A stretch of 64,000 bases of DNA, taken from positions 23,186,671 through 23,250,670 of the forward strand of contig NC_133227.1 of NCBI RefSeq assembly GCF_040436345.1. The letters run 5' to 3'. A program made the position numbers and the translations under genes. Positions 20,801 to 57,139 of this stretch are shown piece by piece (positions within the stretch are counted from its first letter, which is position 1; each line of letters begins with the position of its first letter). Origin of the DNA: Pagrus major (lineage: Eukaryota; Chordata; Actinopteri; Spariformes; Sparidae). The notes below the pieces were generated by a model. The model made no database searches and was not told the origin of the DNA. It was given only the letters and a program-made list of their open reading frames with translations.

Positions 20801-22227
20801 ACCACAGAGATCAGTAAGAACAATTATTATGCAATCAACACTCTCACCTCTTCTTCTTCCTCCTTCTCGCTGCAGGATCCTCGTCTTCATTGTAGTCTCT
20901 TGGCATTCTGGGAAAACAAAACAATCTGTTACTTCCTTCATCATCATCATCATCATCATCATCACTGGTCAGAGATACTCTGTCCTGATAGCAGGCGTGT
21001 TTCTATCCTTCGTCACTCACTCATGGTGTCTGGACTTAGAGGGCGGGGCCGAGGATGGCGTCGCCCGAGGCGTCATGAGCAGCTTCCTGAAGTCATCGTT
21101 GGTGAGTTTGGATCTGAAGAGACATACATGGTTAACACACACATACACAAACACACACAGAGTAACATACACACACACATACACAACGTATTGATACTCA
21201 CTGAGCAGCAGCTCTGTGGTCTTCCACCTCGTGGCCATCAGGAGCCAGAGGGTTGGAGTAACTCTCAGCTGCATGAAGAAAAACACACATATTAGCGAGT
21301 GACAGCAGGGGAAACTGCAGTACACGGAGGGGCTTTCTGCAATCTTGTCTGTACTTGAGTTTTTGTATCATGGGGAAATGGAAATCATGGTATTATTTAA
21401 AGGCAAAAGTAAAGCCTCAAAACACAAGTTTGAATTCTGCAAATACGGTTAAAAATCCCGGAAAAGTTCTTGACACATTTTCACTGGGAAAATTCAGCTG
21501 GCCATGAGCTCTTCCACTAAACTGTTAGCTAGTAGAGACAGACAGTCACCTCAGTTTCAAAGCTCCATCCATATGGCTTTGATTATGTCCCTGGTAAGTC
21601 TAAAGGCTGGTTTCAGTTCAGCAGAATATAGACACATTGTTGTTTCCCTTCAATGGATTGTATTTAATATTCAATTATGTATGAATAGTTCTTGTTCTTT
21701 TCTCAGGTTCTTATTTTTAATCATCATTTATTCCTTGTAGTGTCTCTATGATGAAAATGTCTGCTCCATTTCTATCTCATTATTTATATTTAATTAAAAA
21801 TGTGATTGTTAATGGCAAAAACTGAACGTTTGTTTGCATGCAAACTCCACACAAAGACTTAATAATAGACAGTTGTGTAGCTGATATAAAATTAAGGGCC
21901 ACTCACGGACAATTATTTTAAATTCAATCAAATGTGAATGAAGTTTGGTGTGATGTTATCGGACTCGAGCACGGTATAGCTAAACTAAACTAACTAAGCC
22001 TGATGAAGAGGGTGACTGAACGTAGATACTGTTTGGTAAAACATTCCTGACACTCTTCAGTTAAAGTTTTATCTGAGCTTTGCCAGGATTAAAGACATTT
22101 GTACGTTAAATACCTCTTGGGCTATCAGGTCGGCTAGCATGGTGCTAACGCAGGCTAACGGTCTACTAGCGTGCAACTAAATCATAAACTAGCAGACTTC
22201 TGCAGCTCCAAACTTACTTTCAGGCAT
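14811..22227 (-). CDS. ik: IK/RED spliceosome-associated protein
   Basis: Twenty coding exons on the - strand: 22218-22227, 21202-21268, 21021-21113, 20848-20907, 20439-20606, 20233-20347, 19846-19916, 19271-19317, 19017-19180, 18693-18801, 17484-17523, 17207-17387, 17078-17096, 16879-16973, 16702-16772, 16361-16418, 15645-15733, 15389-15497, 15012-15046 and 14811-14838. All phases close, giving 542 aa (human IK is 557 aa). Hallmarks are SKLTNDDFRKLL near the N-terminus, YYAKLRQQEMERERELAEKY, an Arg-Glu run, FFGGSNSYAECYPATMDDLA, GPLGRWDFDTQEEY and the C-terminus VKRPKY. RED is a nuclear protein of the spliceosomal B complex that works with SMU1 and is needed for mitosis. The RED dipeptide tract typical of mammals is reduced here to an RE run. 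One exon is only 19 bp, and the donor of 16879-16973 (TCT|GTAACG) is weak. Neighbouring ndufa2 lies upstream on the same strand, as expected from vertebrate synteny. Confidence 0.95.
15060..15365. repeat. ~20-bp tandem repeat in ik intron
   Basis: Imperfect copies of TTTACTGACTGTGTACAGACCG, running into TTTACAGTTTACTG variants, fill the intron between exons 15012-15046 and 15389-15497. Confidence 0.8.
18311..18460 (-). mobile_element. tRNA-derived SINE
   Basis: Read on the - strand, the element starts with a tRNA-like head. An A-box-like TAGCTCAGTTGGCTGAGG is followed by a B-box-like GGTTTGAATCT. A tRNA-unrelated body follows, and it ends in CAATAAAGGCATTAAAAAG. It lies in an ik intron. This is the standard Pol III SINE layout. 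Confidence 0.8.
20937..20962. repeat. (TCA)n microsatellite
   Basis: About nine TCA units in an ik intron. They give poly-His or poly-Met ORFs of no significance. Confidence 0.85.
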
Positions 22228-28316: not shown

Positions 28317-31300
28317 TTATAATCCAGCATGTTTCCTTTCAGTCCTGCCCTCTCTGCTCCTGGCGGATCTCTTTAGAAGATCCTGACGTCGTTTCTCGTT
28401 AAGAAGCTGCTGGATCCGTTTGTTTTGTGTTCGCTCACGGAATGGCGGCATCCGCGGCACAAAGTAGTTCTGCTGTCCCCTGGTGATATCACTGTCCAAT
28501 CCCACGATCCGATACGGGACCTCATCCACTGAGTTGTTCTCCTTTTTAGGGAGTGGGAAGAAGAACGACGATGAAGACGCTGTTGGTGTTGGTTCAGTCC
28601 CTGTCAGATTAATTTTAGTTTGAAGGTTCCCTCCTTCTGATGTTCGGTTTGGTGATGATGTGGCGATGACGACGTCATCAGGATCAGCTGACAGTGAGGT
28701 GGGGAACTCTGGAACGGCAGACGTCATAACCGGCATCAGTGTGGGACCTTGACTCTCAGCATTTGCTATGGGAACTGTAGCAGGGGACATTGTGGTAGTG
28801 GTAGTTTTCCTCTTGAATAAATGAGATGGAGCAGTCCTCCTTGCACGTCTCGTAGTAGTAGTAGTAGTGGTAGTAGTAGTAGTAGTTGTTGTTGTCGTTG
28901 GAATGATATCAGGAGTTGCAGAGGGAATAGAGGGATCCTCGTATGATGAATAATCATCATAATCGCCATACTCCACGTATACAAAGTCGGTAGTGCTCCT
29001 GCTGGTGGGGGGCGGAGTTACAGTGAAGCTTGGCGGTGGAGTAGTGATTATTTCACTGATTCCAGACCAAGAGGAGGTGGATGATAAAGTCATCGCCTCT
29101 GTGGTTAAACTCCACGAACTAGGAGACAAAAACAAGAAAGATCAGTGACATCAGATCAGGAGAGTTTAACACCCCTAAAAAATTGGTTTCAAATCTGAAT
29201 TATTTATCTAAATGCTGCATATTTCTAAATGCTGAAAGGGTTAGATGTTAATAAAATATTTCATGTTGCTCTTACTCTGACCTGCTACTGGAGGTCGGGG
29301 GATTTGTGCTGCTAAAGTTGCTGAAGTTGCTGAAGTTGCTGACGTTTCCCTCGCTGCAGGACTTGCAGCACATCTGACGGTATCCAGCAATGGAGCAGTA
29401 CCGACTCAACACCTCCATCCGGCAGAACACTGAACGGTCAGCACGACACCGCTGCCCTGGAGACAGAGCAATGGTTCAGTTAATGAAGTTTGACCACAAG
29501 AGGGAATAGGTGATCAGTGAGTTCAGAAGAACTAAAGATATAGATTTATCCTTTTCTATCCTCCTGTCCTGCCACTCTGCAGAATCAGTAAAAATCATAG
29601 TCCAATACAATCAACCTTTAAACCATCAGCCGTCATCCCAGATGAAAAAAAAAGTTGGGAAATGAGGAGGAAGAGGAGAGATATGTAGAGGAAGAAGAGT
29701 AAGAGCAAACAAATTAGCAGAAATAGCAGGAAGATAAACAAAAGACGCATGTAGGGGAATCAGGACGATCGGGCACAAAGAGAGGAGGAGGAAGTGTGTT
29801 TTACTGGAGGAGATCTTTGGAGCTTTGAAGTCTGTGTTGGACCTGGACAGCCACTGAATGATGGAGTTCTTTGGGTCGCCTGCAGGGAGAGACAAACACA
29901 GTCAGCTACACACAAACTACGACTACCAACATCCCTCCCTTACGTTCATAAAAGGTATAACAATGATTGGTCAATGCCTACCACTACAGGGCGGGGCCTG
30001 GCAGGTGCGGGTTGTGATTGGTTGAGGCTCACTGCAGTTTCGGGCTGAACCCTCGGAACTTGAACATGCAACTTGGCGCTCCTGAGTCCCATTTCCACAT
30101 GACACTGAACACTACAAACATAACCAGGTCAATCAGATTTTGATCAGTTAGTGATCTAGGGTCATACTTAACAAACATCCTAAGAGTGTCAGGTAGTCCA
30201 GAAAGAAAGAAGTTAAAGATAATAAATAGTAAAGAAAGAGAAAGCAATAAGTAGTCTGGAGAGAAATAAATTAGAGTTAGTCCAGTAAGAAGAACGTTAT
30301 AGGTAGTCCAAAATGACGTAAGTTACAGTTTGCCCTAAAAGAAGGAAGTAACAGGTACAGTAGTCCACAGAGAAAGAAGTTACAGGTAGTACAAAAAGAA
30401 GGACGATAGAGGTAATCCAGAAAAACAGAAGAGGTAGTCCAAAAAGAAGTGCATTAGAGGTAGTCCAGAAAGAGGGAAGTAAAGGTAGTCCAGAAGAAAG
30501 TAAAAAAAAACAAACAAACAGAAGTTACAGTTATACATAGCTCAAAAAGACAGAAGGTACTGTAAGCCCAAAAGGAAAGAAGTTACAGGTAGTTCAGAGA
30601 AATAGAAGTTAGAGGTCGTCCAGAAAAACAGAAGACAGAGGTAGTCCAGAAAGAAAGAGGCTAGAAGTAGTCCAGAAATACAGAAAAGGTAGTCAGACAG
30701 AAGGAGGCTAGAAGTAGTCCAGAAATACAGAAAAGGAAGTCAGAAAGAAGGAAGTTCAACGTAACTAGAAAGAGAAATTTAGAGGCAGTCCGGAAAGAAG
30801 AAGGGAAAAGTAGTCCAAAAAGAAGAAAATCAAAGGTAGTCCAGAAAGAAAGAGTTTATAGGTAGTCCAGAGAGACAGAAGTTAGACATCGTCCAGAAAT
30901 ACAGAAGAGGTAGCCAGAAAGAAGGAATTTCAAGGTAACTAGAAAGAGAAATCTAGAGGTAGTCCGGAAAGGAGAAGGGAAAAGTAGTCCAGAAAGAAAA
31001 GAAGTTATAGGTAGTCCAGAAAGAAGTAAATTAGAGGTAATCCAGAAAAACAGAAGAGGTAGTCCAAAAAGTAAGTTCAAGGTAGTTCAGAAAGAAAGAA
31101 GAGGCAGCCCAGAAAGATGGAAGTTACAGGTTGTCCAAAAAGAAAGAGTTCATATGTAGATCAGAGAGACAGAAGTTACTGTTGCCCCAAAAGGAAAGAA
31201 GTTCTAGGTAATCCAGACAGAAGGAGGTTTAAGGTAGTCCAGAAAAATAGAAGTTAGTGGTCATCTAGAAAGACAGAAGACAGAGGTTAGAGGTAGTCCA

Positions 31301-34300
31301 AAAGGAAAGAAGTTATAGATAGTACAGAGACAAAGGAAGTTGCACATAGTCCAGAAAGAAAGAGGTTAGAGGTAGTCCAGAAAGAAGGAAGTTTGAGGTA
31401 ACTACAAAGAGAAATGTAGAGGTAGTCTGGAAAGAAGAATGGAAAAGTAGTCCAGAAAGAAGGAAGTTATAGGTAGGCCAGAAGAAAGAGGTTATAGGCA
31501 GTCCAGAAAGAAGGAACTTACAGGTAGTTGAGAAAGAAAAGAGGTAGGGGTTGTCCAGAAGGAACAAAGAGATAGTCAAGAATGAGGGAAGTTAGAGGTA
31601 GTCCACAAAGAAATGAGTAAGAGATAGTTCGGAAAAAAGCAGGTGGCAGTAGTCCAGAGAGAAGTTGGAGGTAATCCAAAAAAGGGAAGTAGGCAGTAGT
31701 CCAGAAAGAGGGAAGGTGGGGGCAGTACAAAAAGAGAAAGGCAAAGGTAGTCCAGAGAGACGGAGGTTACAGCTAGCCCTGAAAATAAGTAACAACAAGT
31801 CAAAGTAAGTTAGAGGCTGTCCAACGATTTTGGAGGATAGTGGTAAGGTAACTTTGTGACTTTCTGAATAGTCTCCTGGTTTCACTGTTCATACCGGAGT
31901 CCAGGGCCCAGCTCGCCAGGAAGCAGGACAGGGGAGGCGGTTGCAGGTTTGTTTCCCATCTGGGCGGTCCTCACCACAGAGTTTGCTGTTCACCGAACGC
32001 TTTTGTTGTTGCTGCCCCGTGCTGGAAGTCTGCTGGCAGCTCACCCAGCGACGCTGCCACCCAGTCTGACCACAGGAGGCGCTGCAGTCCTCCCACTCCC
32101 CGGTCACCCAGCTGAGGCAGTAGAACAATAGGTTTTCATGCAATAAACTGTGCTTTGTTATTGGATGTGAGGTACACTGACATTTTACTTCCCCTTAACC
32201 ATTAATTTCTAGCCAGTTGGTTTCCCCTTAATAGGAGTGCGAGGTTGTGTGAGTCATTTGAATGTGTATCTGTATATCTATGTACATCTTGCCATTTTGT
32301 TATGTGAACCATTCCTATTGAAAGAGGGTTAAAATTGATCAAATTTGGTGTCAGTACAGAACCACCTTTACAGAACCACCTTTACCTGCACCTGCAAATT
32401 TGCCTAACATGGCGAGCTGTAGTGTGTTACCCTGGCAACCTGTAGTGTGTTACCGTGGGGAACTGCAGGCGTTGGAGTTGCAGCTGCGGCTGATAGCTCT
32501 CGGTTTATTAATGCTGGAGCAGAACATCCTGTGAACCATTTTACCATCAGCCTTCCTCCTGCAGCCGAACCGTGTGTACTGTTTTCCTGGCAACCAGACA
32601 ACAGTGTTAAACAACATGCAGCTGTTACCCTGGAAACCACATAACACAGCTCACTACCACGCTGATGACCAGCAAAAGAGTTCAAACCTCCTCCGCAGGG
32701 TTTCGAGCAGTGGGACCACTTCTTCAGCGCCCATTCATAAAAGATGCCGTCCTCGTGCAACAGGTTGGACTCAAGCGAGGACCGGAGACGGTCCTGGATG
32801 ATGTACTTGTAAGATACTGTCACCTTTGAGTCGTCATGGGAATGCACCTAACAGGCAGAAACAAAGGTAGGCAGTGGTTTCTCCAATTTAGACTCTATTA
32901 AGATGCAATGTCAGCATGTTGGACTTAGTTTGTCTTGTTGGTGGACTGACCATGAGCAGGACTCCGTATTTCAGTGGACCTGTGGTCTGGACAGACTCCT
33001 TCTCCTCAGTGTTGCTGTACTGCCACATCACACCCTTCTCAATCACCACTCGGGATTCTGGGAGCTCGTCTTCATCGTTGAGGAAGAGGTGACCCGTGTC
33101 CTGGTTCTTCACCGCTGGAGCAGGAAACAATGAAAATAAGATTTTTCACGTAATGGTGGGCTGCAGAGTTCTTTAAGGTCCTCCTCCCTTCTCTTACCCA
33201 GGATGTGAGGAGTCCCTTTGAATTCCTGGATCAGCAGGTGTCGGGCTCCTTTGGGGATCTCCAGGATCTTCAGGTAACCTACGTCATGGGAAGAGTAATC
33301 ATTAATTGATCATTGATCATTAATCGGTCAGTAATGAAAACTACCAGTCCCCATCACTGTCTTTTGCATGGCAGGACTGGCTTAAATACCTGTGTAATAA
33401 TAATTTCGGGGCCCTGATCTTCACTTCTTCATTCACAGGACATCAACTTCCTGTTCAACAGTTCTGTACTGAATGAGGTTAAAAGAGCTCCAGTATTTGA
33501 ATGGAACATGTTTCAGTCTGACACAAAAACTTCAGGAACCTGAAGTATCTCCTCTGATGAGATATTTTTCAGAGACCTTGTTTCTTGGTGCTGCGGGTGA
33601 AATTTCCTTTGATGATTTTACAGCTGGAGTTATCTCCTCCACAGACACCACATCGATCCTCCTGCATGTCTGAAGCGATCTGTCCGTCACAACCTACGTG
33701 CTGCATGGGGAGAGAGGAAACAGGGAGAAGAAGATTTTAGTTTGATTTTAGCTTAAAAATGGTGTGTAAATAACATCTTTTCTAATTAGTTAGGGATATT
33801 TGGGCTTTCAGTGACTTCTTCTTATGTTCTTTTTCGGTTGATTTTTACAATTTAAAACAAGTCCCCATTTACTTCTTTTGTTTGAGGTGAATCTTGGAAC
33901 ACTGTTTTGCTGTGAAGCTCCAGAAATGTTTTCTAACCCTAAAACACTTCACCCGCCTTTCCATCAATATGGGAAGGAGATACCAATAGAAATGAGAGAT
34001 TTCATTTTTGGTTGCACTTTTCCTTTAATGTCTAGATGTAATGTAATTTAGGCGATGCAATAAATACTTAATGCAATAAAATTACACTAATACAATAACA
34101 TAAGCTTAAGAAGTTGAGAAACTAAATAAAGACCTCACACTCTCCTCCTACGCAGACACTATGGCCGTCACTGTAGGAACACGGCGTCCCATCATACACC
34201 ATTCTGTTCATGGAAACCACTGCGGCCGTTTCGTTTGACTGACAGTACAGACGACAGCGCTCATCAGCTGCAAACACACAGAAATATAATGATCCAAGAC

Positions 34301-37300
34301 AGCAGTGTCAAAGCAACGTAAGGTAGAACATTTAAAGTGGAACATTAAGAGTTTAAAGAAATGGAAATCAAAATATTTTCAGACTTTAAAGAGTTAAAGA
34401 GAGAGGAGAGGCCACAAGTTTCCTTCCAATAACAGATTCCTGACTGATGAGTTTAACATATGAACACACACGCATACACACACACACACACACCCAAATA
34501 CACATTAAAACACACACACACACATTTTTTCCAAACTTACAGATTAGATTAAAGTTTCCTCTCTGCTCTGCTCTGTGTGTGCAATGCACAGGGTTTCTGT
34601 GTGTGTGTGTGTGTGTCTGTGTGTGTGTGTGTGTTTGTGTTTGTGTTTGTGTTTAATGTGTATAATAAAATATGTATTAAAATGTGTGTTTTACAAATTA
34701 TGTGTGTATTATGTGTGTATTTATGATCAGGGTGTAGGTGTGTGTTATGTGTGTATTATAATGTGTGTATTTACGGTCAGGGTGTTGGTATGGCAGCCAG
34801 TGATGTTTTCTTCCTTCATGTTCATGAAATGGATCCCAGACTTTACACTGATCCTCCCTGAAAGAGAAAAACAACACATATCAGCCTGCAGAAATACACA
34901 AACACAACTCAACTCAACTAGAGCAACACAACACAAAACATGATGACACAACACAACTTAACATAACACAACTAAACTCAACACAACACAAAACAATTAA
35001 ACACAACACAACACATAACGACATAAACACAACTAAACATAACACAAATATAATGACATGACACAAGTAAGCACAACACGACGCACCTTAAGATAACATA
35101 ACTCAACACAACACAACTCAGTACAACTAAACATAACACAACACAAGAAAACACAACATAAAACAGCACAACACACCTCAACATGACGCAAAACAACACA
35201 AGCACAAACACAACCCAATACAATGCAACTCAGCACAACTAAACACAACACAACACAACACATTTGTAAATGCACACACTGGGGTACATGGGGTCCAGTC
35301 GAGTCCAGTTGAAAGGATTGGACAGTAGATCTACTGACCTGAAGTCGGTCAGTGGTGGACACTCTTCTCTGCTGCACAGCTGGAACTCATAACTATTTCC
35401 GAAGCAGGTGCGCCCACCGTTGGCTGGACTGAGAAAAACAACAGGTTAGTCTCTCTGATTGGTGCGTCTCATGTGTGACATCACTGATGACTTACAACTC
35501 ACTCACGCTGGATTGTCGCAGTGCCTGGCCCGAAACCTGACCCCGCCCCCACAGCTCCTGGAACAGCTGCCAAACGGAGTCCATGTTCCCCAGCTGCCAT
35601 CTTGTCTCAGCATGTCAGGGGTCAACTTCATGCAGTAACCTTTGAAACAGTGCTGCAAAGAGAGACAGCTATCATGGAGATGTAAAGGAAGATGAGACCA
35701 GAGCTGGATTCAAGACTTGTTAGCCTAGCTTAGCATAAAGACTGGTAGCTGTGGAAAACAGCTGTTGCCCAGACTAGCAGTCTACAGCCATGCTAGCAGC
35801 TCTGCTTTGCACAGTGCTAATATCAGCATGCTAATATGTTCACAGTGACAATGCTAACATGCTGAGTCTAGTTTGTTAGCATGCTAGCACATTAGCAGTA
35901 ACCACAAAGTGCAGCTGAGGCTGATGGGAATATCATTGGCTCTGCAGGTATTTGATCATAAACCAAAGGGAGTTATTAATTGCTGACCTGACATAGAGTC
36001 TATCCATAGTCGTTGACACTTTTCAGTTTGAGCCAAAATGGTGGATTGAAATTTATCCTCAGAGATAATTTACTGACCTCCACTCACTAATAAATGTGAT
36101 GTATCTCTTTTGTTTGGCCAATGAGATTTTTTTTCTCTTTCACATACTGAAATCATAAGAAATGGTTTTGTTGATATAAACCTGCCAATGTCTGATCCCA
36201 AAAACCTGTCTGGGATAAATTAGACATCCTGTCATCTAGTGAGCAATGACCCGAATGTGTCCTCACCTTCCCCGGTCCACACTTTGTCCCGTCGAGTGGC
36301 GGACCTTTCTTGGTTTTACAGTAGAACGGGTTGTTGTAGTCACTGCACCACAGCTGTTTACAAGGGTCAATGGTTGCGTACTAGAGACAAACACACATAC
36401 ATACAGATACACAGAATATCTCAAAATACAAAAATAAAATCATAAACATCAGCCCAAAACACAGACAAGCAGCATGAAAAACTAATGTTCATTCAAACAG
36501 CAGAAACAGAAAGTACAAATGTGTTTTAAATCTTCATAAAACCTGCCTGACTTCTTAAATCTGAGCCAGAGAGGAAACAATCAGGGCCAAACTGAAAGAA
36601 ACTGTGAAAAATGGATCAATTCAACACAAACAGGATGATCAGAACCAGGAGAGAAAACAATATAATTTCATCATCATGTTGCAATGTTGGAAACGCCCAG
36701 AACAGACTCCATCTGATTAAAGACTGCCGATACATTTGATCTAATGTGTTAGTTTAAATAGTCCTCCTGGGGAGGTTTTCTGTGTGATGTCATCAAACGG
36801 TTCTCAGTTAACATCCTGAACAGATGTGGTGTTGGCCTCCAACCCAAAAACACATCAGCAGGTCACATCAGCACACATCAGTCTCACTAAAACACATCTG
36901 AAAAACTCAAACATTCAACTCCTGCTTCAAGTGTTCCTTTGGAGGTCTTTTCATCCTCAGACTGATATTTACATAGTTTTCTGACATCCTTATTGGGTTT
37001 ATTTTTATATCTTGCAGTCCTATTTCAAAAAGTACTTTAATATGTGTAAAAAAAAAACTAAAAAAACAGACGGACATACTGCAGTACAGAGACTGTATCC
37101 TGGTCCGAAGTCGAAGCGACACTGTTGGTCCATGGAGTACTGAAACCCTGGCAACTGAGGCAGAGCCGGCCAATCATGGTTGAATGGGTCATCACGGAGA
37201 CAGTCATAGGTACTAAAGAGAGACAGATAGATGGACAGATAATCGGTTCAGGTGATGCCTGATGTGGAATTAGGGCAAAAATATTCACATTACAGTCAGA

Positions 37301-40300
37301 CAGAGTTCAGTGTTTCTGTTGTTTACAGTAAGTATACTAGTAGTAGTGCAAGTAGTACTCACTGCAGGTACTTGTGCAGCTCCATCCAGCTGCACCTGGA
37401 CCAGTGATATCGATGGAAGGTGGCCTGAACTCGCGGAGACATGATGCTGCCCAACGGCACATCGTCCTCACAGTCATTGGCCTCACCGTCATGCTCCATC
37501 CCTAACCTGAGACAGACAGAAAGATAATAAATAGAAACAACAGCAAATTCCAGTCAGCTACAGCACCTTGAGATGGTAATACAGTATTGAATCTTGGAAG
37601 ATTTCTATACATTGTCGTAATGATGAAGGTGAGTCAGTTATTGTTTCTATGTGGACACTTGGATGACCTTTATCATCTCTACGTGGACACCTGCAGGTCA
37701 GTATCATCTCTAAGTGGACACCTTGGAGTAATTATTGTCTTTGTCTGGACACCTGGGATTTGTTTGTGTCTAAATGGACACCTGGGTGTCAGTACCGTCT
37801 CTATCCTCTCTACTCAGACACCTGGGTGTCATTATTGTCTTTACCTGGACATCGGGAATTTGTTTTTGTATCTTAATGGCTACCTGGAGGTCATTATCAT
37901 CTCTACGTGGATGTAGGAGTAATTATTGGATCTACTGGGACACCTGGGAGTCATTACGCTCTCTACATGGACGCTTGGGAGTGAGCCATCATGTCTACGT
38001 AAACACCTGGGAGTCATTGTCTTCTATGTGGACACCTGGGAGTCATTACCATCTTTACCTGGACACCTGGAAATAGTTTTTGTCTCTACATGGACACCTA
38101 GGAGTCAATTATCATCTCTACATAGACACCTGGGAATCTTGATCATCTCTATGTGGACCCCTGGGAGTCATATTGTGTCTACATGGACACCTGGGAGTCA
38201 CTAATGGCTCTACATTCTGTTATCATCTTTACATCTGAGTCATTTTGATGTTGTTTTTAATTGTTGTTGTTTTATTCAGAATGTTTATTTTGTAGAAATG
38301 TGAAATTGTTTCTTAATTACAAGTGCTGCCAACAAATTTGCTTTTAGTTGTAGTGTCTGTGTGTCTCACACGTGTCCTGTTTCATGGGCAGCTACGAAGG
38401 CTGACGAAAAACCGTCCTCAAAGACGAGAACACAACTCCGATGCAGGTGACACATTCCTGTAACAGGAGCATAACCTGCGGAAAGAGATCAGAAGTTCTT
38501 CGTCAGGTGTAAGAGGTCTGGGCATGGTCAGGCAGGTGGTGTTAGTAGCAGTACTCATAGTATTAGTGGCAGTTTTAGCAGTAGTACCCTGCATACCAGA
38601 GAGGGAAAACGCATGCCTTCGCAGGTAGACAGTGTTACTAGTAGTCCCTTAAGTTTTAGCAGTAAAATTAGTGCCTTGAATGGCAGAGAGGCCAAACTCT
38701 TGCCTGATCATGTAGAAGATGTTACTAGTAGTACTTGAAGTATTAGTGATGATAGTAGCCGTAGTGTCATGCTGAAGGGTCTGAACCCCAGCCTGATCAG
38801 GTTGATGGTGTTACTACTCGTACTTGTAGTATTAGTGGAGGTATGAGTAGTAGTACCTTGCATGCCAGAGGGCAGGAGCGCTTGCCTGGTCATGTAGATG
38901 ATGTTACGAGTAGTACTTGTAGTATGAGCATTAGTGCTTTGCATACCAGAGGGACCAAACTCCAGTCTGATCATGGAGATGTTGTTACTAGAAGAAGTTG
39001 AAGTTCTAGTGGTAATATTAGCTGTAGTGCCTTGCATGCCAGAGGGTCTGAACCCCAGCCTGGTCAGGTAGATGGTGTTACTACTCGTATTAGTGGAGGT
39101 ATTAGCAGTGGTCCCTTGGGTGCCAGGCTGTTGAAACTCTTGCCTTATCATGTAGATGGTGTTACTAGTAGTACTTGTAGTATTAGTGGAGGTATTAGTA
39201 GTAGTACCTTGCATGCCAGAGGGAACAAACTTTTGCCTGATCATGTAAATGGTGTGACTAGTAGTACTTGCCGTTATAGCGGTGGTATCGGCAGAAGTAC
39301 TTTGCGTGCCAGAGAGACTGAACTCCAGGCTGGCCAGGTAGATGGTGTTACCTCTAATACTTGTAGGATTAGTGGAGGGATTAGCAGTAGTACCTTGCAT
39401 TTTGAAGGGACCAAATCCTAGCCTGGTCAGGTAGATGGTGTTACTATTAGTACTTGTAGTATTAGTGGAGCTATTCGCAGTCGTACCCTGCATGCTGAAG
39501 GGGCCAGAATCTTGCGCAGTCAGGTAAATGTTGTTACTAGTAGTACTTGCAGTATTAGTGGAGGTATTAGCAGTAGTACCCTGCATGCCGGAGGGACCGA
39601 ACTCCTGCCTGGTCAGGTAGATGGTGTGGTCGTGTTGCTCGGCATGACTCTGCTCTCTCTGCTGGAGATACGACCATCCACAAACATTCTCCAAACTCTT
39701 CTGGGGATTCCCCACAGAGACCATATCCAGGGACTGATGGAGAGACCCATTTTGCATTTATTGTTTCTTTTGAATTTACATACAAAATGTAAGAGTAAAC
39801 ATTTAAAAACATCAATTTGTATTAATGGATTTGCCCGGGAGTTAAGGCATTGTTTAGTATCAGTAACAGTATGCTCTGTTGCACTTTTTCTCTTGGAATT
39901 TATTTTGTTGTGTTGTGAAAGTACCATACAGGATGGACATCCTAAAGTACATAAACTTAAACCACAAAAACTATACAAATACTATTTTTGGAATAAAACG
40001 TCCAGGGAGATTTGATAATAGAGCTCACCAAAGCAGTGGAACCAGATCATTTGAAAGCAAGGTGGGAAATAGAAATGGTGGTTCTCTTTATGAACAGCTG
40101 CAACACCACCTCCCTGACCCTCGTTATCTATCTAGATTTTAAAGTGAAACTTTCACAGAGCTAGTTATAGCGAGTACAACATTTGAACACCTGGGGATCG
40201 ACAGGCGCGTAGGAGAAAACCAAGGGCTGAAGAAATCAGGAAAAAAACTCCTGCACACTCTCCTGACATTATCAAGATAACCTGATGAAGCTGAGATCAA

Positions 40301-43300
40301 ACAGCACTGACTTTGTTGGCCTGTTGCAGGAGGACCCCACAAAGCAGTAGGTGAGACAAACTGAAGTTTCCACGACATTTATTGAAAACTTCTACCCTGA
40401 CAACACGTAGAACTGAAAAAGAAAACTTGTCCTTCCTGAGTAATATATTAAAACAACTAGACAACTGATGTTCATTTATAGACACCATAAACCTTTGGTA
40501 GCTTTGAAAGATTGTTTAGTACCTTTGATGGAGACAACATGATGATTCTGACCAGAACTACATTGATGTTGGCACCAAGAGAATGATCTTGATAGATCTC
40601 ATTAACCTGGAACAGACAAAGAGAGAAAAGTGCTGAAATATTCATAGTAAAACAATCAATTCATCAGCCTATCTGACCATCTATTCTTGATTCTGGAAAA
40701 TCCATTTGCCCCTGAAATAAAAAATATGTGTTTCCACTTACAATGTTCATGAGTGTCAGTAGATATTTCTGAATGTGGTCTCGGCCATGGAAAAGAAGAA
40801 CAGAATAATCCACAGCTAACAGAACCTGCAAGAGGAAAAACCGAACTTTCAGATTGGTTAAAAAGTTAAGTAAACTCTACATGAATCACAGTTTATCAAA
40901 CTATTTCATTCACCTCAATGTTAAAGAGTTCAGCCTCCTCAATGTAACGCCGCCGTCGAGCTGAGCCTGATTTTGACCACAGCTCATTCTGGTTCAAGTT
41001 CAGAGAACCTAAAAGAGGACCTGGAGACAACCAAAAGAAACGTCTCAGTAATCATGAAAGTCATTCGTACGCACAGGTCTCTAGTGAAGTGAAGTTTTTT
41101 TAGCTTGTTTGACATTGATGTACATGTGCATGTCAAAACGAGTCTTGGGTGACCTCAGTGACTCTCAGGTGACTCCGACAACTCTAACTTAAGTCCAACA
41201 ACAATCAGGTGACTTAAAAACTCTCATGTGACTCTGAGGACTCTCAGGTGACCTCAAAGACTTTCAGGTGACCTTAATGACTCTCAGGTGACTGTACCAA
41301 CTCTCATGTGACTCCAATGACTCTTGCATGACCTCAAAGACTCTTAGGTGACTCTAACAACACTTGGATGACCTTAAAGACTCTCAAATGACCAAAGCGA
41401 CTCTCATGTGACCTCACCAACAATCAGGTTACCTCAAAGACTCTCAGGTGACTTGAACGACTTTCAGGTAACCTCAGCGATTCTCAGATGACCCTAAAGA
41501 CTCTTAGGTGGCCTTAAAGACTATAAGATGGCATCAACAACTATCAGGTGATGCCAATGATTGTCAGGTGACTCTAAAGACTCTCAGGACTCTCAGGTGA
41601 CTCTAATGACCTTCAGGTGACCTCAATGACACTCCTGTGATTGAAATGACTTTCACATGACTCTAACGACTCTCAGGTGTTATCAATAACTCTTGGGTGA
41701 CTGATTCTCCACAAAATAAAGTTTTGGAAAAAAGTGTTATATTCTCTAGCAACCACTCTCCTTGTGAGTTCTTGTCTATTATATAAAAGCTACATCAGTT
41801 TAAAACTAGCTGAATCTTTGCTGATCTGAGGACAGACAGAAACAGATGTTTGCTTCTGAAGGTGTGCCATTGAGCATGAACCAGAACGAATCTCTGCGTT
41901 ATAGTCATTTTACATATAAGTGCTACCAGAGTTGAGGTCATGCTGTGTTGCCAGATGTTGGAGCAAAGCTGGGTTTTCAATGGCCAGTGAAGGAAACAAA
42001 ACAAAACTACTCATGCTAACATCTCCTAAAGGCCACAGTGTTCATCACAGCCTCAATATGAAAGTGTTGGAAGAGAAATAATTAAAATTTTCAACTTTAC
42101 GTTTGAACAAATGATTTCCCCATTTGTTTTGTTCTTCTGTTGTATTCCAAAAATGACCTAAAATAAAGACCTCAAAGATGGTTTGATTTGAGATTTTTAA
42201 AGCACATAAATCCATCCTTCGATCCATTACGACCCCTGTTGTCTGTGATAGAGAGTAACTAAGAAAGGGTTTAGCTCTACAGCCTTAATGGAGAAACTCG
42301 TCCTGTGAGACCAAACATGAATATTGTGGCTGCAGGATTGACTGTTTACTGTAACACAGACCAGAACAGATGGTCAGATGTTGAAGATGTTTTCACTGAG
42401 ATTAAACATGCAGGTCAATGTACTGTTGTCTAGTAAACCTCCTGAATACAAACAAGAACAAGAATGCAGTTTCTGTTTCTCTGAGTCAGATTTTTCATCT
42501 TCATGTGACCATTGCTCACCGTGTAATGTTGCTTTATTCTGTAAACAACAAAAGTAAGTCAGCTGATCTGAGGCTTAACATCCAACATCCACTGGAATGT
42601 AATGAAAAAACAAACTTTATTTACAAAATGGAAGCCCCAGCAGGGTTATCTTCCCAAAACTAGTAAGAAGGGATTGAATGCTAGTGACTGTATGCAAAAC
42701 AGGAAGGAACAAAGACAGTCAATATTTAATATTGTTGACATATTTTCATAATCGGAGAAGAACTTTAAGAGATACTTGCATTTTATCTCTTAAAATTATA
42801 TTTATTTTTTACAAATATATATATCACATTGTCCTGCCAAAAAGAAAATAAGTAGGTTTAGTGATCATAGCTCTGTGGATCATGTCCCTTATAGAGTTAT
42901 TGTTCATTTTTTTACTAGCAACAAATAAGTCCTGACGCGAACTCTTGAGGTTTGTGCATGTTCTCTACAGGAACATTAAAGTCAAATAAAAACATGTGTT
43001 ATATGTCAACATATTATAATCCTTTCTTTTGTTACAAATCTGACATACATGTATGTTGTTACTGTCCGTGTTTTGTGTTTGAAACATAAATCCTGGTTAC
43101 TTTAAATGTTCATAAAAACATCTGTTGAATCTGTTGTGAAGGAAATGACATAAGCGATCAGTAACAGACACTCTGAGGTCACGCTGTTCTGCCGGAGGCT
43201 CGGGATGGGTTTAACTGAGGTGAACAAAAACTTGCTCCTCATTGGCTGATGCTGCTTTGAGGACAAACAGATTTGAGTAGTCAGTGACTGAGAGGACGAG

Positions 43301-46300
43301 TGAATCAGGAGCTGAACTATCTGTCAACTCTCAGTCCAAAACCTCCAAAACCTCCAAAACTCTGAACCTCGCACTGCCACGTCGCAGCTGGCTGAGTGTG
43401 TGTGTGTGTCTGTGTGTGTCTGTCTGTGTGTGTGTGTGTGTGTTGCGAAGCTCCCATTGCGTCTGCCAAGCTTCCTGGAACAATTTCTCTGTTTTCAGTT
43501 TGATTCTTTCCTTCTGCAGAAACAACATAGCAGGAGCTAAAAACAGTTTCTGCTTTTGTTTATCACTTGATTTCACCTCTTAATAATGTCATGTGAGGGA
43601 CTGACCTGCCAAACCACATTTCATTCATATAACTAACCACAAATTCATATTTCATATTGGACTACAGCATTCAGATAGAGAAGCAGTTCCTGAAGAAAGT
43701 GTGTGTGATTTCTGAAATATTGATTGTGAAAAGCCTGATGACAGTGTTTTTGAAAAAGTAACAGTTATACTTGAGTAAAAGTATCTGAATTGTACTTAAG
43801 TATCAAAAGTACAGGTAAATAAGTTATTTATATATTCATGCGTATGTGTATACTATATACTATTTGGTCGACCTGCACGATTATGGGATCCGATTTTCAA
43901 CAGTTTTCTGATTATCGGAATCAGTTTTGTTTTTTTTCATCCGATAACCAATCAAACAAATTTGAAGCAAATTTAAAAATACACTACTTTGGCTCTTAAA
44001 AATAACTACTAACTAAAGTTATCAAATAAATGTAGGGATTAGTACGTTATTTGCCTCAAAAAATGTAGTGGAGTGGAAGTATGAATATGGAAAAACGGAA
44101 ATACTCTAGTAAAGTACAACTGCCTCAAATTGTATTTAAGTAAATGTACTCTGTTACATTCCATCACTGGTTTTCTTACCTCGGAGGAAGTCATCAGCAG
44201 TTTGATCGACAGCTTCAGATTGATTGACAGCCTGTTGGTTCTTGATGATGGCTGAGGAGCGATAAACAATGTGTTGTCTTCCTCCTTCCTCCTCCTCTTC
44301 TTCTTCTTTACTTCCTGACCTCGGTCGATCCCACGGCTCGATAAAAAATTCCTCCTGACCCATTCGGATCAACCCAGCCTGGAGACACAGAGAGCTGTTA
44401 TCTAGTGTTGTATGATCTAATGTTTCATCTACTGTTTAATTTACTGTTTCTTTTACTGTTTCATCTTCTGTAAATCTAGTGTTTAATCTACTGTCTAATC
44501 TACCGTGTAATATACTATATATCTACTGTTTAATCTACTGTAAATATATTATTTCATCAATTGTTTTATTTACTGTAAACATACTGTTTAATCTAATGTC
44601 GCTCCACTGTTTTCGTTAACTGTTATTCTGCTTTAAATGTGCTTAAATGTACTGAAGTTTGAGTTAGTGTTATTTCAGTGTGAGTGAATCAACATTATTG
44701 AAGTGTGAGTCAGCATTATTTTAAATGTGAGTCAGCATTATTTAAGTGTGAGTCAGCGTTATTTATGTATGAATCAGCATTATTTTAGTGTGAGTCAGAA
44801 ATTATTTTAGTTTGAGTCAGCGTTATTTATGTGTGAATCAGCATTATTTTAGTTTGAGTCAGCGTTATTTATGTGTGAATCAGCATTATTTTAAATGTGA
44901 GTCAGTATTATTTAAGTGTGAGTCAGCGTTATTTATGTGTGAATCAGCATTATTTTAGTTTGAGTCAGCATTATATTAGTGTGAGTCAGCATTATTTTAG
45001 TTTGAGTCAGCGTTATTTATGTGTGAATCAGCATTATTTTAGTTTGAGTCAGCGTTATTCAAGTGTGACTCAGCATTATTTCATTGTGCATCAGCGTTAT
45101 TTCCGTGTGAGTCAGCAGTTACCCTCCTCAGTTGAAAATCTCTACATGATAATCCCGCAGCATCACTAATGACCGAACACGACCAATTCAACACAAACAG
45201 ATTAATGCTGTTCAATGTGTTTAGACATTCCTGTTATTTTGTCCACCATCAGTTGTTCCTGCTTTAAGTTACATCAGCGGTTGCAGCAGGAAAATATTCC
45301 TCTCTTCTTTTTCCCTCTTTCCATTTCTTTCCTTCTTGTCTTTCTCCCTTTAAACGCCTCTCATCTTTCCTTCACATCTGGCTTCAATCAGGCGGCTCAG
45401 CTCACGCTGTAAGAAGTGACGATAAACTGAGACACAGTCGGACAGAGTTCAGTGAGTTAAAGCAGCTCAGGTCTTCATGTTTAACAGTGTTTTTTCTGTG
45501 TCTCTGCAGCCTGAAGTCTTTTTAGTCTCACATGAATCGACTTGTTTCCCTGCACTGTTTCCCTTCCTGCTGACTTTAACTAAACTTCTGAAAATAATCT
45601 CTCTTTATTTGTTTTGTTTTACAAGCTGGTTTTATTGTGATATTATTAATGTTATTGTGGATCCTTTAACATAAAAAATGTTCCTTTAAGATTTTTGTGT
45701 GATGAGACATTTATCATCAGTTAAACGAAAGCTGCAGCAGCGACACCTTTCTTCTGTTTTAATGATATGTGAAGATTGTCCCTGTGTGGCTTTGTGCTCA
45801 GAAAAAAATATTCTCATCATGCTGCACTTTTTTTGAGTGTTAAACTCCCTCTGTGGTTTCAGCTGCACATATGTCAGCTTATACGAAAAGTCAGAAGGCT
45901 CAAAAAATACCAGCAGCTGTCAAAACATCTGCCTCCATCAGCAGCTTCCTCACAGAGGATGATGCTGATGATAATGTAAAGATTTAAGGATGTTTCTGTT
46001 CTAATATGTTTATATCCTTATAATCTTATCCAACTGTTGTTTTTTTATGATGCAATGTTTTATGTAACATTTAGAAATAAAAATAATACAAATGATGTGC
46101 ACACGCAAAATCTTCTGATGATGGAAATAAGAGATGTACATTTATAGAAAATCATTTGTTTACATTGTTTGCTGAATTCACTGCTTCTATTATTTTGCCG
46201 GCTATACAGCATAAGATAATTTATAAACTTAATTTTTGTTGAGGAGGGGGTCAAAAGGGAGTCAGAGAAGAGATTGAGAGGAGTGAATGTAAGGGGGTAG

Positions 46301-48821
46301 TGACCAAGAGGTAGTGAGTAGGAGGTTCGTGACCAGGGGGGGATTAAGAGAAGATAGTGATCAGGAGAAAGTGTGAGGAGGGAGTGACCAGAACATAGTG
46401 AGGAGGGAGTGACCAGGAGGGAGTGAGGGGAGAGAGTGACCAGGACATAGTGAGTAGGAGGGAGTGATCAGGAGGGAGTGAGGGGAGAAAGTGACCAGGA
46501 CATAGTGAGTAGGAGGGAGTGACCAGGGGGGAGTGAGGGGAGAGAGTGATGAGGAGGGAGTGACCAGTAAGGAGTTGAAAGGAGAGAGTATGAGGAGGGG
46601 GTCAAAAGAGAGTCAGAGAAGAGATTGATAGGAGTGAATGTAAGGGGGTAATGACCAGGACTCAGTGACCAGGAGGGAGTCAGAGAAGGGAATGATCAGG
46701 AGAGAGTAATAAGGAGGGAGTTGAAAGGAGAGAGTGTGAGGAGGGATTGACCAGGGCGTAGTGAGTAGGGAGTGACCAGGAGGGAGTGAGGGGAGAAAGT
46801 GACCAGGAGGGAGTAAGAGAAGATAGTGATCAGGAAGAAGTGAGTGATGAAGATGGAGTAAGAGGAGGGAGTGAGAGGGGAGAGTGAGTTAGGGAGTGAC
46901 AAGCAGGGAGTGATAAGGGAGTGATGAGGAGGGGGTCAAAAGAGAGTCAGAGAAGAGATTCATAGGAGTGAATGTAAGGGGGTAATGACCAAGAGTTAGT
47001 GAGTAGGAGGGAGTGACCAGGAGGGAGTCAGAGAAGGGAGTGACCAGGAGGGAGTGAATAGGAGGGAGTGACCAGGGCGTAGTGAGTAGGGAGTGACCAG
47101 GACGTAGTGAGTAGGAGGGAGTGATCAGGAGGGAGTGAGGAGAGAAAGTGACCAGGACATAGTGAGTAGGAGGGAATGAGGGGAGAGAGTGATGAGGAGG
47201 GAGTGACCAGGAAGGCATTAAAAGGAGAACTATGAGGAGGGAGTGACCAGGAGAGAGTAAGAGAAGAGAGTGATGAAAAGGGAGTGACCAAGAGGGAGTG
47301 AGAGGGGAGAGTGAGTTAGGGAGTGACAAGGAGCGAGTGATAAGGGAGTGATGAGGAGGGGGTCAAAAGAGAGTCAGAGAAGAGATTGACAGGAGTGAAT
47401 GTAAGGGGGTAATGACCAGGAGTTAGTGAGTAGGAGGGAGTGACCAGGAGGGAGTCAGAGAAGGGAATGATCAGGAGAGAGCAATAAGGAGAGAGTTGAA
47501 AGGAGAGAGTGTGAGGAGGGAGTGATCAGGACATAGTGAGTAGGAGGGAGTAACCAGGGGGAATGAGGGGAGAGAGTTATGAGGAGGGAGTGACCAGGAG
47601 GGAGTGATGGGAGAGAGTGACCAGGACATAGTGAGTAGGAGGGAGTGACCAGAAGAGAGTAAGAGAAGGGAGTGATGAAGAGGGAGTGACCAAGAGGGAG
47701 TGAATAGGAGGGAGTGACCAGGAGGGAGTTAGGGGAGAGTAATGAGGAGGGAGTGATTGGTAAGGAGAGTATTTAGGAGGGAGTGATGAGGACGGAGTCA
47801 CCAGTAGGGAGAGACCAGGGGGGAGTGAGAGAAGGAAGTGATGAGGATGGAGTAAGTGGAGGGAGTGACCAGGGGGGAGTGATGAAGGGGAGTGAAAGAG
47901 AGAGAAGTCAACCGTCATCAGATGACACCTACCAGTCCGTCGCAGTTGCTGATTGCGACAGACGTGTCCTCCATGTTTGACACCTCTCCTGTGTAAAAGC
48001 AGTCTGTGCCTCCTATTGGCTGAGAGTATGTCTGTCCTGACTCCTCCCACCACTCCATGGTGGCGGTGGGGGCAACGAGACGTGAGTTGGGACGCAGCTG
48101 CAGGTGGAGCTCCTGTCCGAACACTGTCACGTTGTAGAAAAGCCCCGCCTCCTCATCCCTGTAACCCCGCCCCCTTTCACTGTGTCCTGTCTGGCTTGGC
48201 GTTGACGCTTCAATGGGCGGGATCTGGTCTAAGATGTCTGTTTGAGTCTGTCTTTTGTTTCTGATATTGTTTATATCAGTGGGCGTGTCCTGTGTAGCGT
48301 GGGCGTGTCTTTTGCTTCGGTGCAGGTGGTTGGCGGAGACTGACGCTGACAGGAAACGCCCCTCTGAGTTGGTCCTGATTGGACGAACGACATTGAACTC
48401 TGACAGGACCTGGTTGAGAGAATCTGAGAAAAAGAATAATTAAAATAACTTTTGTGTTTCTTCACCTGCCAGACTTCTTTGTAGTGATGACACTGTGATG
48501 TTGCTGGATCTTATTATAGCTTTTATAAATGTCAGTGGGATTTCCAATGAGGATTTCTTCTTCTTCTTTTTCTGAAAAAGGATCTCAAAGTTCTGTTTTC
48601 ACTTTAAATCTCCATAAGGAGAAAAACACAGTCCACAAACACTTGCTTAAATGTCTAAAATTGTGACTGCAGTCTGGTGGGAGAGATTAATAAATGCACC
48701 ACATGTTGTGCAAAATGGTAAAACCTGAAAAACAGAGTGAAAGCCTGTAACATCTGGAACTGAGAGCCAATCAGAGTCAAGCCTCCTTCTGCAGAGTGAC
48801 ATCAGCTAAAGGCTGATCTCA

Positions 48822-50914: not shown

Positions 50915-51438
50915 GTCTGAGCCTGAACCTTCATCGTCCAGCTTGTCTGAGCCTGAACCTCCATCGTCCAGCTCTTCTGAGTCTGATCCTTCATCGTCCA
51001 GCTCCTCTGCGGCTGAACCTCCATCGTCCAGCTCCTCTGAGTCTGAACCTTCATCGTCCAGCTCCTCTGAGTCTGAACCTTCATCGTCCAGCTCCTCTGT
51101 GGCTGATCCTCCATCATCCAGCTCCTCTGCGGCTGAACCTACATCGTCCAGCTCCTCTGAGGCTGAACCTCCATCGTCCAGCTCCTCTGAGCCTGAACCT
51201 CCATCGTCCAGCTCCTCTGCGGCTGAACCTCCATCGTCCAGCTCCTCTGAGCCTGAACCTTCATCGTCCAGCTCCTCTGTGGCTGAACCTCCATCATCCA
51301 GCTCCTCTGAGCCTGAACCTCCATCGTCCAGCTCCTCTGAGCCTGAACCTCCATCGTCCAGCTCCTCTGCGGCTGAACCTCCATCATCCAGCTCCTCTGA
51401 GCCTGAACCTCCATTGTCCAGCTCCTCTGAGCCTGAAT
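50915..51438. repeat. 30-bp minisatellite, copy A (~17 units)
   Basis: Tandem units AGCTCCTCTGAGCCTGAACC followed by TCCATCGTCC, with single-base variants (GAG/GCG/GTG, CCT/TCT). The unit is 10 codons and lacks stops in several frames, so three overlapping ORFs (Ser-Glu-Pro, Leu-His-Arg-Pro-Ala, and reverse Arg-Ser-Trp-Thr-Met) appear. The same unit makes array B at 60451-60902. Confidence 0.95.
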
Positions 51439-51929
51439 TTGGTGATTACATTTTTTTTCCTGCTGGCCTTGAAAAACTATTCCTGCTGCACTCAGTGTTT
51501 TCTTCTGTTTGCATTGCTGAAGTCAGAAACACAGTAAACAGACAGCAGATGTAAACATGTGTTTAAGTGTCTAATTATACAACTGAAATATTGTTTAGAG
51601 CAGAAAAAGCCTCAAATGGCTGCTGCTGCCAAACACTGTTGTGGTCTGTCTGCCTGAAGCTGTCAGGTCACACACATCTTTTAAAAAAACTTTACAGTTT
51701 TCTTTATTTTAGTTCAGTTATAATCAGGTTTTACTGACAACATCAGCAGGTCACAGTCAGTCTGCTGGTAGCTGATTTTAGCCTCATTTTACATTTCATT
51801 CACTTGACTTGAATTTCTTTGATTGATTTTGATTGATTGGGTCCTCAGCTGGAGCCGCCAGCTGCTGACAGGTTAGCAGTAAACCTGGATGTGTCCGTAG
51901 ACTGTGTGGGAGTTTTCTGCCACGACTGC

Positions 51930-52460
51930 AGTGTTTATGTTGAGCTGCTGTATTATAGCAGAACTCAGCTGGAAACATAATGTTGCTATTAAAACTTTTA
52001 TATTGTTGTAAAGTCTGATGATGGAATCTGTCTGTATATTCATTGTTTTTCTCTGCTGTGTTTTCTGTTCACTAACAGCCAAGTTTAGACTTTTTGCTTG
52101 AATTAGTCCAGTGAATTGTTTAATTAAGTAATTAACAACATGCATCCATGCTTTCTCTAACACTAACATCCTGTTCGCAGGCTCACGGTAGATGGAGTCT
52201 ATCCCAGCATGCAGCAGCAGCACCACCGCCTGGAGAAAAGCCTGACTTACAGTTAGTGAGGTGAGAAATATTCAGATCCATCACATAAAGAAACTCTTGT
52301 TAAAACTCTGGCAACTGTGTTTTGTACAAGCTGAAGTCTGTTCACTGATTTTTTTTCCTTTTTGTAACCTACTTAAAAGTGTCATGATTGGTGAATTCAG
52401 GCCACAGAGGGAAGTTGACTAAAATACAAACACACACAGACACACAAAGGCAGGTAGAAT
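51930..52460. repeat. Duplicated segment, copy A
   Basis: It begins at TGTTGAGCTGCTGTATTATA and is nearly identical to 60908-61375. It has a different short insert near 52095, and about 85 bp around 52295-52375 absent from copy B. Both copies contain ATGGAGTCTATCCCAGCATG and a CAGCAGCAGCACCACCGCC block. Confidence 0.9.
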
Positions 52461-54546: not shown

Positions 54547-56133
54547 TTACCAGCCCATTTCATTCATTTCAACTCTAGTGTACTCATTTTTATGTGCATC
54601 TATTTTCTTGAGCTTCCGAATGAACCATTCACCTAGTTTTTGCCATTTTATGGAAATTTTCACATGAAGGGGCTGAACCTTGAGGAACATCTCTGAGGTG
54701 TAGTATGTTTCTCCATTAGCTCTGGATATCTGATCTATTTTATCCAGAAGGTTTTTAACCTGCACCCTGTTTCCTGTCTTTGTGTTGTCAAACACACAGT
54801 GTCTACCACCACACTTAGAGACCAGTTCTGACACATATCTGTTGTCCTGGATCAAATCATTAACGGACTTCTCTTTCAGTCTGTCTCCATTAGTGAAAAG
54901 GACCATCGTATACTTAGGAGCATCTCTGCTGAACAGTTTTGGCAGCATCTTTAACAGTTTGATGTCTGCAGCAGAGATCCTGTCAATCTTCAACACAATG
55001 ATGAAGGCATGTGGTCCTGGATCAGCCTCTGCTACTGCTTTCATGATCTCATTAAACAGCTTTTTGGGAGACAGACCTTTCCCAGTGAATCCTGGAGTGT
55101 CCACCACTTTGACCAGACGACCCTCCACTGTGTCTGATTTAGAGACAGTCTCTTCACTGACTGAATTAAAGCCACACACTGATTCAAACCGCACTGATCC
55201 AAGGATGTTGTTTCCTGATGCACTTTTCCCTCCTCCTGGTAGTCCAAGCAGCACGATCCTTATTTCCTCCTCAGTCTCAGACTCCCAAGAATCAGCAGCT
55301 GGAGGAAAGATGATATTATTATTATTATTATTAATAATAATAATAATAATAATAATAACCATAAGAAGAAGAATGATATTATTATTATTATTATGTAAAC
55401 TAATGTGCAGTGAGAATGAGTCACCTCAGACTAAGTTATCTAGACTGATCTGTGGTTGATACTATAATGTGACAAACAATACATAGCAGCTGTGCACATC
55501 CAGAAACTGTTATTATTTTTTTTTTTTTACATCAGATTAGATAAGCTGATCTACTGATGCACAGTCTTGTGTATAAGATTATTACTGACCATTTCTGAGG
55601 TGGCCTGATTTCTCCAGCAGCTTTTTGACTTGTTCCTGTCCTCCATCTTTATTGTTGAACACATGATGTCTTCCTTCAAAACTTTCAACAAGAGGTCTAA
55701 GCTTTGGATCTTCACTGATGAACTCATCCAGCATGTCATCTAATTCATCTCCTCCTGTAAAAAGGAGGTAGCAATTGTTGAACTGATCACCGATGACACT
55801 GACGGCAGCATCCACAGCATTTTTCTCCTCGATGGTGAATCGATCTATTTTAACCACCACCAGGAACAAACAAGGTGTGGAGGACTGCAGGAGCTCCTGG
55901 CAGCAGGTCCTAATGTCAGTCTCAGAACCAAATATTCCCGGACTGTCGATCACTGAGATATGTTTCCCAAAAACTGTTTCAGTATTTTTTGAGATCTGTG
56001 TTGTCACTGATTTGAAGGATCGTTTTGACAAAAATGCTGGTCGTCCCAGGATGGTGTTTCCTGAAGCACTTTTACCAACTCCTGAGTTTCCCAGGAGGAC
56101 GATGGTGAGACCAGGATCAGGAATTGGATCCAT
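54547..56133 (-). CDS. gimap: GIMAP-type (AIG1) GTPase with two G domains
   Basis: Two coding exons on the - strand, 55590-56133 and 54547-55298, joined in phase across a 291-bp intron, give 431 aa. The first exon has an AIG1 G domain with P-loop GNSGVGKSASGNTILG and switch DSPGIFG. The second has another, with GLPGGGKSASGN, DTPGFTG and a conserved-box-like block. GIMAPs are guanine-nucleotide-binding proteins that form scaffolds on membranes and affect lymphocyte survival; teleost genomes carry many multi-domain versions. An acceptor at 56150/56151 precedes the start, so at least one upstream non-coding exon is expected. MDPIPDPG (56133) is the first Met in the exon; a longer ORF reaches 56220 only by crossing the acceptor. 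No transmembrane segment is seen at the C-terminus. The exact GIMAP orthology is unknown. Confidence 0.87.
55318..55395. repeat. (TAA/ATT)n microsatellite
   Basis: TAT/TAA triplets with a polarity switch (ATT runs, then AAT runs, then ATT) form a foldable AT repeat immediately upstream (in - strand sense) of the acceptor of the second GIMAP exon. Confidence 0.8.
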
Positions 56134-57139
56134 GTTGAGCAACACAAAACCTGCTGGAGACAACAGAAAGAGGTTGGAAAATCTAAAAGATATTTCTGGA
56201 AATAGGCTGAAAAAAGCCAATGTCAGATGATCAACAAACCATCTGATCTGCTGTATTACCTGTAGTTGTCACAAAGTTTTCTGGTGCCGAGATGGATTAT
56301 TAGCAATATGTTCTTACTTTCAGTTTGTCCTCCAAACAATGTGTTCCAGATGATCTGATCAACTGTTGGTTTGCTGAATATCGAACGTGATAATTTGCCA
56401 GGCCAAATCGTTCGATTCATAGTTTACATCATATACATGTAACTATATATATACACTCAGAATTCTGAGTCTATACTAAGAATTGTGACTTTAATCAAAT
56501 TTGAGTAAGAAATTTGAGTAAAAGTAAGAATTCAGAATTTACTGAAATTTAAAATGCTCAATTTAATTGAATTGACCAGTGATATGAATTCCGTACATAT
56601 AAAATAAATATATAGAATATATCTGTTATAAAAACATCAAATGGCGAAAATAACATTAAAAACCATAAAGATCATGATTTTATCATGTTGTTGAGAATGT
56701 CTTAAAAGTTCTCTCAGAGTTCAAATTATGTTTTAGGGAAAATGTGACGCTTTTATTCATCAACATATTAGACAAAAATTGTTGTTAACTGTAATATGCT
56801 TGTGACTGTGACTGCAGCAGAAAGAAGATGCAACTTGAGAATCTCCACACTACCTTCCATTGTCATTACTCAATGTTGTATATCAAGTGCCATATTCATA
56901 CTCATCCGTGTTTAAGTCCTATAAAACATGTTTCTTACAAATGTTTCTTGAAAATTAAGAATGTGTGAAAAGATAATATGCAACGTCAGAGTTGTCGCAT
57001 TTGGCGATGAACCAACAGAATTATCAGAGAATCTGCAGCTAAAGTCCACGTGAAGTGTTTATTGACGCTTCAAGTGAAAAAGCAGGAATTACAATCAGAA
57101 TGAAGAAGTGAAATTTTAAAACTTGAACTGAAAACTGTA

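Follow-up and report, generated by a model that had tools for sequence, protein, structure and literature searches.

A 93-bp tandem array spanning a 5' splice site of an adamts gene in Pagrus major

The adamts gene and its surroundings

On the minus strand of the window (the whole 64-kb stretch of Pagrus major DNA that was analysed, 64,000 nucleotides), twenty one exons of an adamts gene were mapped from position 48409 to 29982 by reading frame and GT/AG junctions. The mapped set begins after exon 1 and stops at aE21, short of the exons that lie 3' of it, and the exon numbers (aE2 and onwards) are those of this analysis. When joined through the first donor of the array described below, the twenty one exons were found to give 1021 codons with no stops. 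Reprolysin, propeptide, TSP1, cysteine-rich and spacer domains were identified in the protein above Pfam cut-offs, with the ADAMTS domain set represented by PF01421, PF19030, PF17771, PF19236 and PF05986, and its protease part matched ADAMTS-5 (2rjq, 5.5e-41), ADAMTS-1 and ADAMTS-4. These domains and protease matches bear out the ADAMTS identity given in an earlier sequence-only reading of this DNA. We take the gene to belong to the ADAMTS2/3/14 collagen-processing group.

Exon aE6 (39580-39733, 154 bp; exon 7 of the sequence-only reading) was assigned by frame, GT/AG junctions and its ADAMTS-5/ADAMTS-1 protease match, and ends in CAGG|. The next exon, aE7 (38370-38475), was assigned by frame and junctions and encodes YAPVTGMC...AHETGH(V), the AHETGH(V) of which is presumably the start of the zinc-binding motif. 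With splicing at the first donor, the query carries no extra residues at the aE6/aE7 junction, where the solved proteins (ADAMTS-5 and two ADAMTS-1 chains) have three more.

Additional repeats were observed in the same gene, namely a short 9-bp repeat encoding Ser-Asn-Phe repeats in apparent adamts coding sequence (29310-29346, minus strand), and minisatellites with different units of their own in the introns at 46356-47882, 30271-31784, 37882-38200, 41148-41679 and 44415-45117 (minus strand). Elsewhere in the window lie an IK/RED gene (15046-21109, minus strand), of which one exon matches RED_N (Pfam) and another encodes Arg-Glu repeats from a CT-rich tract (17264-17327), and two AIG1/GIMAP-like GTPase frames (54547-56268, minus strand), the first matching PF04548 and the second named by eye. 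The plus-strand gene that holds an array at 7862-7956 we assume to be dachshund-like; a Pfam search with two of its exons returned no match.

Structure, donors and frame of the array

The intron separating aE6 and aE7 (39579-38476, minus strand) is 1104 bp in length and, as the array ends approximately 50 bp short of the next exon at 38475, consists almost entirely of array. Tandem Repeats Finder reported a period of 93 with 10.6 copies (38669-39627) and a period of 279 with 3.9 copies (38562-39627). Segmentation and alignment on the minus strand resolved twelve units (38541-39625), with u1 starting at 39625 and u12 at 38633, followed by a partial thirteenth unit (38522-38540, its end approximate) that holds the exon-derived part only and was anchored at unit offset 1086 with the aid of the sequence. 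In each unit a 46-bp exon end is joined, through the 5' splice site, to 47 bp of intron that are largely ACT/AAT triplets; u1 holds the real exon end (...GGCATGCAGG) and the real donor |GTACTA. Eight units are 93 bp long, while u6, u8, u10 and u11 measure 84, 81, 89 and 87 bp, respectively. Mean pairwise identity among the twelve units is 0.728 (range 0.632-0.882). The best downstream copy of the array's donor region scored 118, whereas none of 60 dinucleotide shuffles exceeded 30, and the 93-bp array is thus real and far beyond chance.

These measurements agree with the description in the sequence-only reading of about twelve 93-bp, donor-bearing units that join an exon end, its 5' splice site and an intron start directly before the zinc-site exon; the region it had delimited, 38525-39733, comprises the upstream exon together with the array, and the junctions it implied (39580 and 38475) coincide with the last exon base and the start of the next exon, the first intron base being 39579.

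Units farther apart in the array were no less alike than neighbouring ones (r -0.08, p 0.31), but units three apart were found to be more alike than chance (lag-3 identity 0.768, permutation p 0.0024), which, together with the 279-bp period, suggests growth in blocks of three units. The exon-derived part ends in CAGG in u1, u2 and u12 and in CAAG or CAAA in u3-u9 and u11, as if the array edges had escaped homogenisation.

At the donor position, GT was identified in seven of the twelve units (u1, u2, u3, u4, u5, u9 and u12) and GC in three (u7, u8 and u11), with the donor broken in the remaining two, by GG in u6 and by deletion in u10. The reading frame is open through u9 and is then interrupted by a 4-bp deletion in u10 and a stop in u11; the u12 donor retains GT, but its use would be out of frame and bring in a stop. 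This leaves five in-frame GT donors within the intron, which would lengthen the exon by 31 to 241 codons: u2 (AGG|GTACGA, last exon-like base 39487, intron from 39486, +31), u3 (AAG|GTACTA, 39393/39394, +62), u4 (AAA|GTACTT, 39300/39301, +93), u5 (AAG|GTACTA, 39207/39208, +124) and u9 (AAG|GTACTA, 38856/38857, +241), all on the minus strand. The proposal that any of the array's donors could be used without a frameshift was hence upheld as regards the frame, which is open as far as u9, but applies to these five intronic donors and not to all twelve. Likewise, CAAG|GTACTA, said to be present in many copies, occurs exactly in only three of the twelve (u3, u5 and u9).

Donor strength was estimated with a simple 5' splice-site matrix, by which 31 mapped donors were scored, the donor of aE4a being left out. 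On this matrix the native u1 donor (1.14) is the second lowest of the 31, and u2 (5.53), u3, u5 and u9 (3.48 each) and u4 (2.04) all outscore it, so that some copies look like better donors than the first, as the sequence-only reading held; u12 scored 1.14. The preceding exon, aE5, has the same AAG|GTACTA 9-mer as u3, u5 and u9 for its donor. Away from the unit donor position, other GT sites of the array reached scores of up to 6.09 on this matrix.

Donor-spanning repeats elsewhere in the window

Duplications running over a donor were identified at three further sites. An array of 2.6 copies of a 36-bp unit lies in the dachshund-like gene (7862-7956, plus strand), with three identical, strong GAG|GTGAGA donors whose first intron bases are 7877, 7913 and 7949. 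Its copies are 100% identical, and introns of 109, 73 and 37 nt would remain depending on the donor used; the intron acceptor was set at 7986 by frame, while the window-wide duplication and array-coverage counts used 7997. Use of the second donor would lengthen the exon by 12 codons with the frame kept, and these residues would presumably fall in a likely coiled coil. The other two sites are on the minus strand in adamts, and consist of a 23-bp unit in 2.1 copies at exon aE19 (32410-32458) and a duplication at exon aE13 (34698-34792, aligned range) with an offset of 47 bp and a copy without GT. For none of the four duplications (aE6, aE13, aE19 and dachshund-like) did any of 60 shuffles reach the observed score, and in two of the four the offset equals a whole number of codons. 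A borderline fifth case was found at aE8 (score 34, offset 9), situated in a triplet repeat, for which 0 of 60 shuffles were as good. Donor copying was not supported for the arrays near the donors of dachshund-like exon dD2 and IK exon iI10, for which 8 and 45 of 60 shuffles, respectively, were as good. The Tandem Repeats Finder rows taken by themselves place three donors, those of aE6, aE19 and dD3, within arrays.

Using a copy score of at least 40 within 500 bp as the threshold, donor-spanning copies were found at 4 of 32 donors, 0 of 29 acceptors and 0 of 20 adamts exon midpoints. The contrast between donors and acceptors rests on counts too few to settle it. Of 150 random positions, 23 passed the same threshold, as did 41 of the 80 intron interiors sampled; an origin of the minisatellites by seeding at donors was accordingly rejected and, as donors are not enriched over this repeat-rich background, no claim is made that arrays begin at donors. 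Arrays make up 36% of the mapped intron bases of the three genes (6215/17449). In introns of at least 250 bp, array sequence occupies 13% of the 20 bases that follow donors and is absent from the 20 that precede acceptors, but makes up 28% at 100-200 bases from either end. These results show that arrays sometimes run over donors, with no preference for donors seen. The presence of the same kind of duplication at further donors in the window, a point absent from the sequence-only reading, suggests a general mutational process.

Origin and splicing of the array

In amphioxus, exon-intron boundaries repeated in tandem in the manner of a minisatellite have been described as 'mirages'; many of the copies carry splice signals, and the arrays are unstable in length and leave regular splicing unaffected (PMC3087553, PMC3902484). 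The two reports describe cases in Adh3 and the globins BflGb6 and BflGb9, with similar repeats in PGBD5 and TnC, and give 81-100% identity among the BflGb6 units (PMC3087553, PMC3902484). As in those cases, the tandem units of the adamts array lie across an exon-intron boundary and many copies retain GT (GT or AG in amphioxus); every unit joins an exon end to an intron start, with the first unit among those keeping GT. From these shared structural features it was concluded that the adamts array is probably an old mirage, although it differs from the amphioxus examples in its ray-finned fish host gene, its 12 units at 73% mean identity and its unit of a whole number of codons. In addition, donors alone are affected in the window, whereas both 5' and 3' boundaries are affected in amphioxus. 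Among titles and the beginnings of abstracts found under fish and teleost terms, no fish mirage was recognised, and one may be in print elsewhere; tandem repeats in an earthworm metallothionein intron, in the part of the account available, were not described as copying a donor (PMC12783039).

Human genes in segmental duplications also carry tandem repeats at exon-intron boundaries, which are variable, can activate cryptic sites and are reported to be retained in some alternative transcripts (PMC2812944). The human repeats are recent and lie in duplicated genes, while the adamts units are much diverged and known from the genomic sequence of one haplotype. Tandem duplication of AGGT-bearing segments, a further duplication that carries splice signals, has been linked to the gain or change of introns (PMC4974935, PMC3443670); in contrast to such gain, an existing intron seems to have grown here, with no sign of a new intron.

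The array is therefore best explained, with a probability of about four in five, as an old exon-intron-boundary minisatellite that is diverging neutrally and is spliced mainly at its first donor. A 93-bp stretch, in which 46 bp of exon meet a triplet-repeat-like intron start of 47 bp at the 5' splice site, would have been tandemly duplicated; unequal exchange or slippage, acting in part on blocks of three units, would then have enlarged the array until it occupied the intron. Its copies would now be diverging neutrally and, with normal splicing at the first donor, would leave with the intron. We infer this mechanism of duplication and the use of the first donor, the latter because a conserved protease domain results without an insertion; the site itself gives no preference for the first donor, as it scores below five of its copies. 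Since several copies still have weak to moderate donors, and since human boundary repeats are reported to be retained in some transcripts, minor in-frame extended isoforms are possible, and at a low level would be plausible as noise.

Neutral divergence was assessed against a null in which the changes of each unit were kept and moved to other sites of the same base; it takes the consensus to be the ancestral unit and assumes that the history was star-like. Stops in u2-u9 were not significantly rare (0 against 2.06 expected, P 0.11), nor were those in u2-u12 (1 against 3.3, P 0.16). No excess was found of synonymous codon changes in u2-u9 (20 against 22.4 expected) or of silent changes in the exon-derived half of these units (9 against 12.1), and changes in u2-u9 were spread over the codon positions as 36/37/42, with 15/26/25 in the exon-derived half. 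The exception is the exon-derived half of u2-u12, which has no stops against 3.4 expected (P 0.02, one of six sense-frame stop tests), a hint of some retained openness. The openness of the extension frame is mostly explained by the consensus of the 93-bp unit having no stop. The donor T(+2) survives in 6 of the 11 intronic copies, where columns average 8.8, and is among the ten of 93 columns that no more than six copies retain. The GT pair likewise survives in 6 of 11, the mean for all dinucleotides being 7.4; this loss is not unusual, since 29 of the 92 dinucleotides are retained by no more than six copies. In Pfam the read-through frame gave a match to SPT16 (E 0.0044) that fell below the cut-off and was taken as chance. 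Selection on the extended frame or the donors, by which a functional switch would be recognised, was thus not found, with one of the six stop tests leaning the opposite way.

These results bear directly on the length-variable splice switch proposed in the sequence-only reading, in which alternative donors would add steps of 31 residues before the zinc site and so tune the protease. It is favoured by the five in-frame intronic donors, all scoring above the native one, by the 9-mer that u3, u5 and u9 share with aE5 and by the scarcity of stops in the exon-derived half, but an evolved switch fits poorly with silent changes that follow the neutral null, a u2-u9 stop shortage within chance and the poor retention of the donor T. 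The lost donor of u6, the GC of u7, u8 and u11, the frameshift of u10 and the stop of u11 also count against it, as does the placement of the insertion within the protease domain, at a point where neither ADAMTS-5 nor ADAMTS-1 has one and where it may affect folding; we consider such a switch quite unlikely. The copies may instead compete for U1 snRNP as a load of decoys or a buffer, lowering or buffering use of the weak authentic donor so that array length would affect expression. The weakness of the native donor, second from the bottom on the simple matrix and exceeded by u2-u5 and u9, speaks for this reading, which is nonetheless unlikely given that donor positions are kept no better than other columns. 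Tandem arrays are in general prone to misassembly, but a spurious repeat is most improbable where units differ by 12-37% and an intact exon is joined in frame at each end, even if the copy number may still be off. It is very doubtful that arrays have repeatedly spread over 5' splice sites across the lineage as a store of in-frame spare donors; were this so, the adamts and dachshund-like genes would make tunable families of extended proteins, their number following array length.

Taken as a mirage, the adamts array would extend the lancelet phenomenon to a fish gene, with an old, decaying array and a young, identical one in the dachshund-like gene within the same 64 kb. With such a pair, the choice that the spliceosome makes between nearly identical donors can be addressed directly, as can the question of whether arrays that expand across splice sites contribute to longer introns or to extended exons. 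The dachshund-like donors at 7862-7956 are the cleaner test case of donor choice.

Two other arrays in the window (50916-51437 and 60448-60902) lie approximately 9 kb apart, and their 30-bp units are almost the same, agreeing at 28 of 30 bases when compared by eye. Near them are reading frames with the same start (51873-52271 and 61057-61257), and the arrays and frames are perhaps parts of a minisatellite-bearing mobile element.
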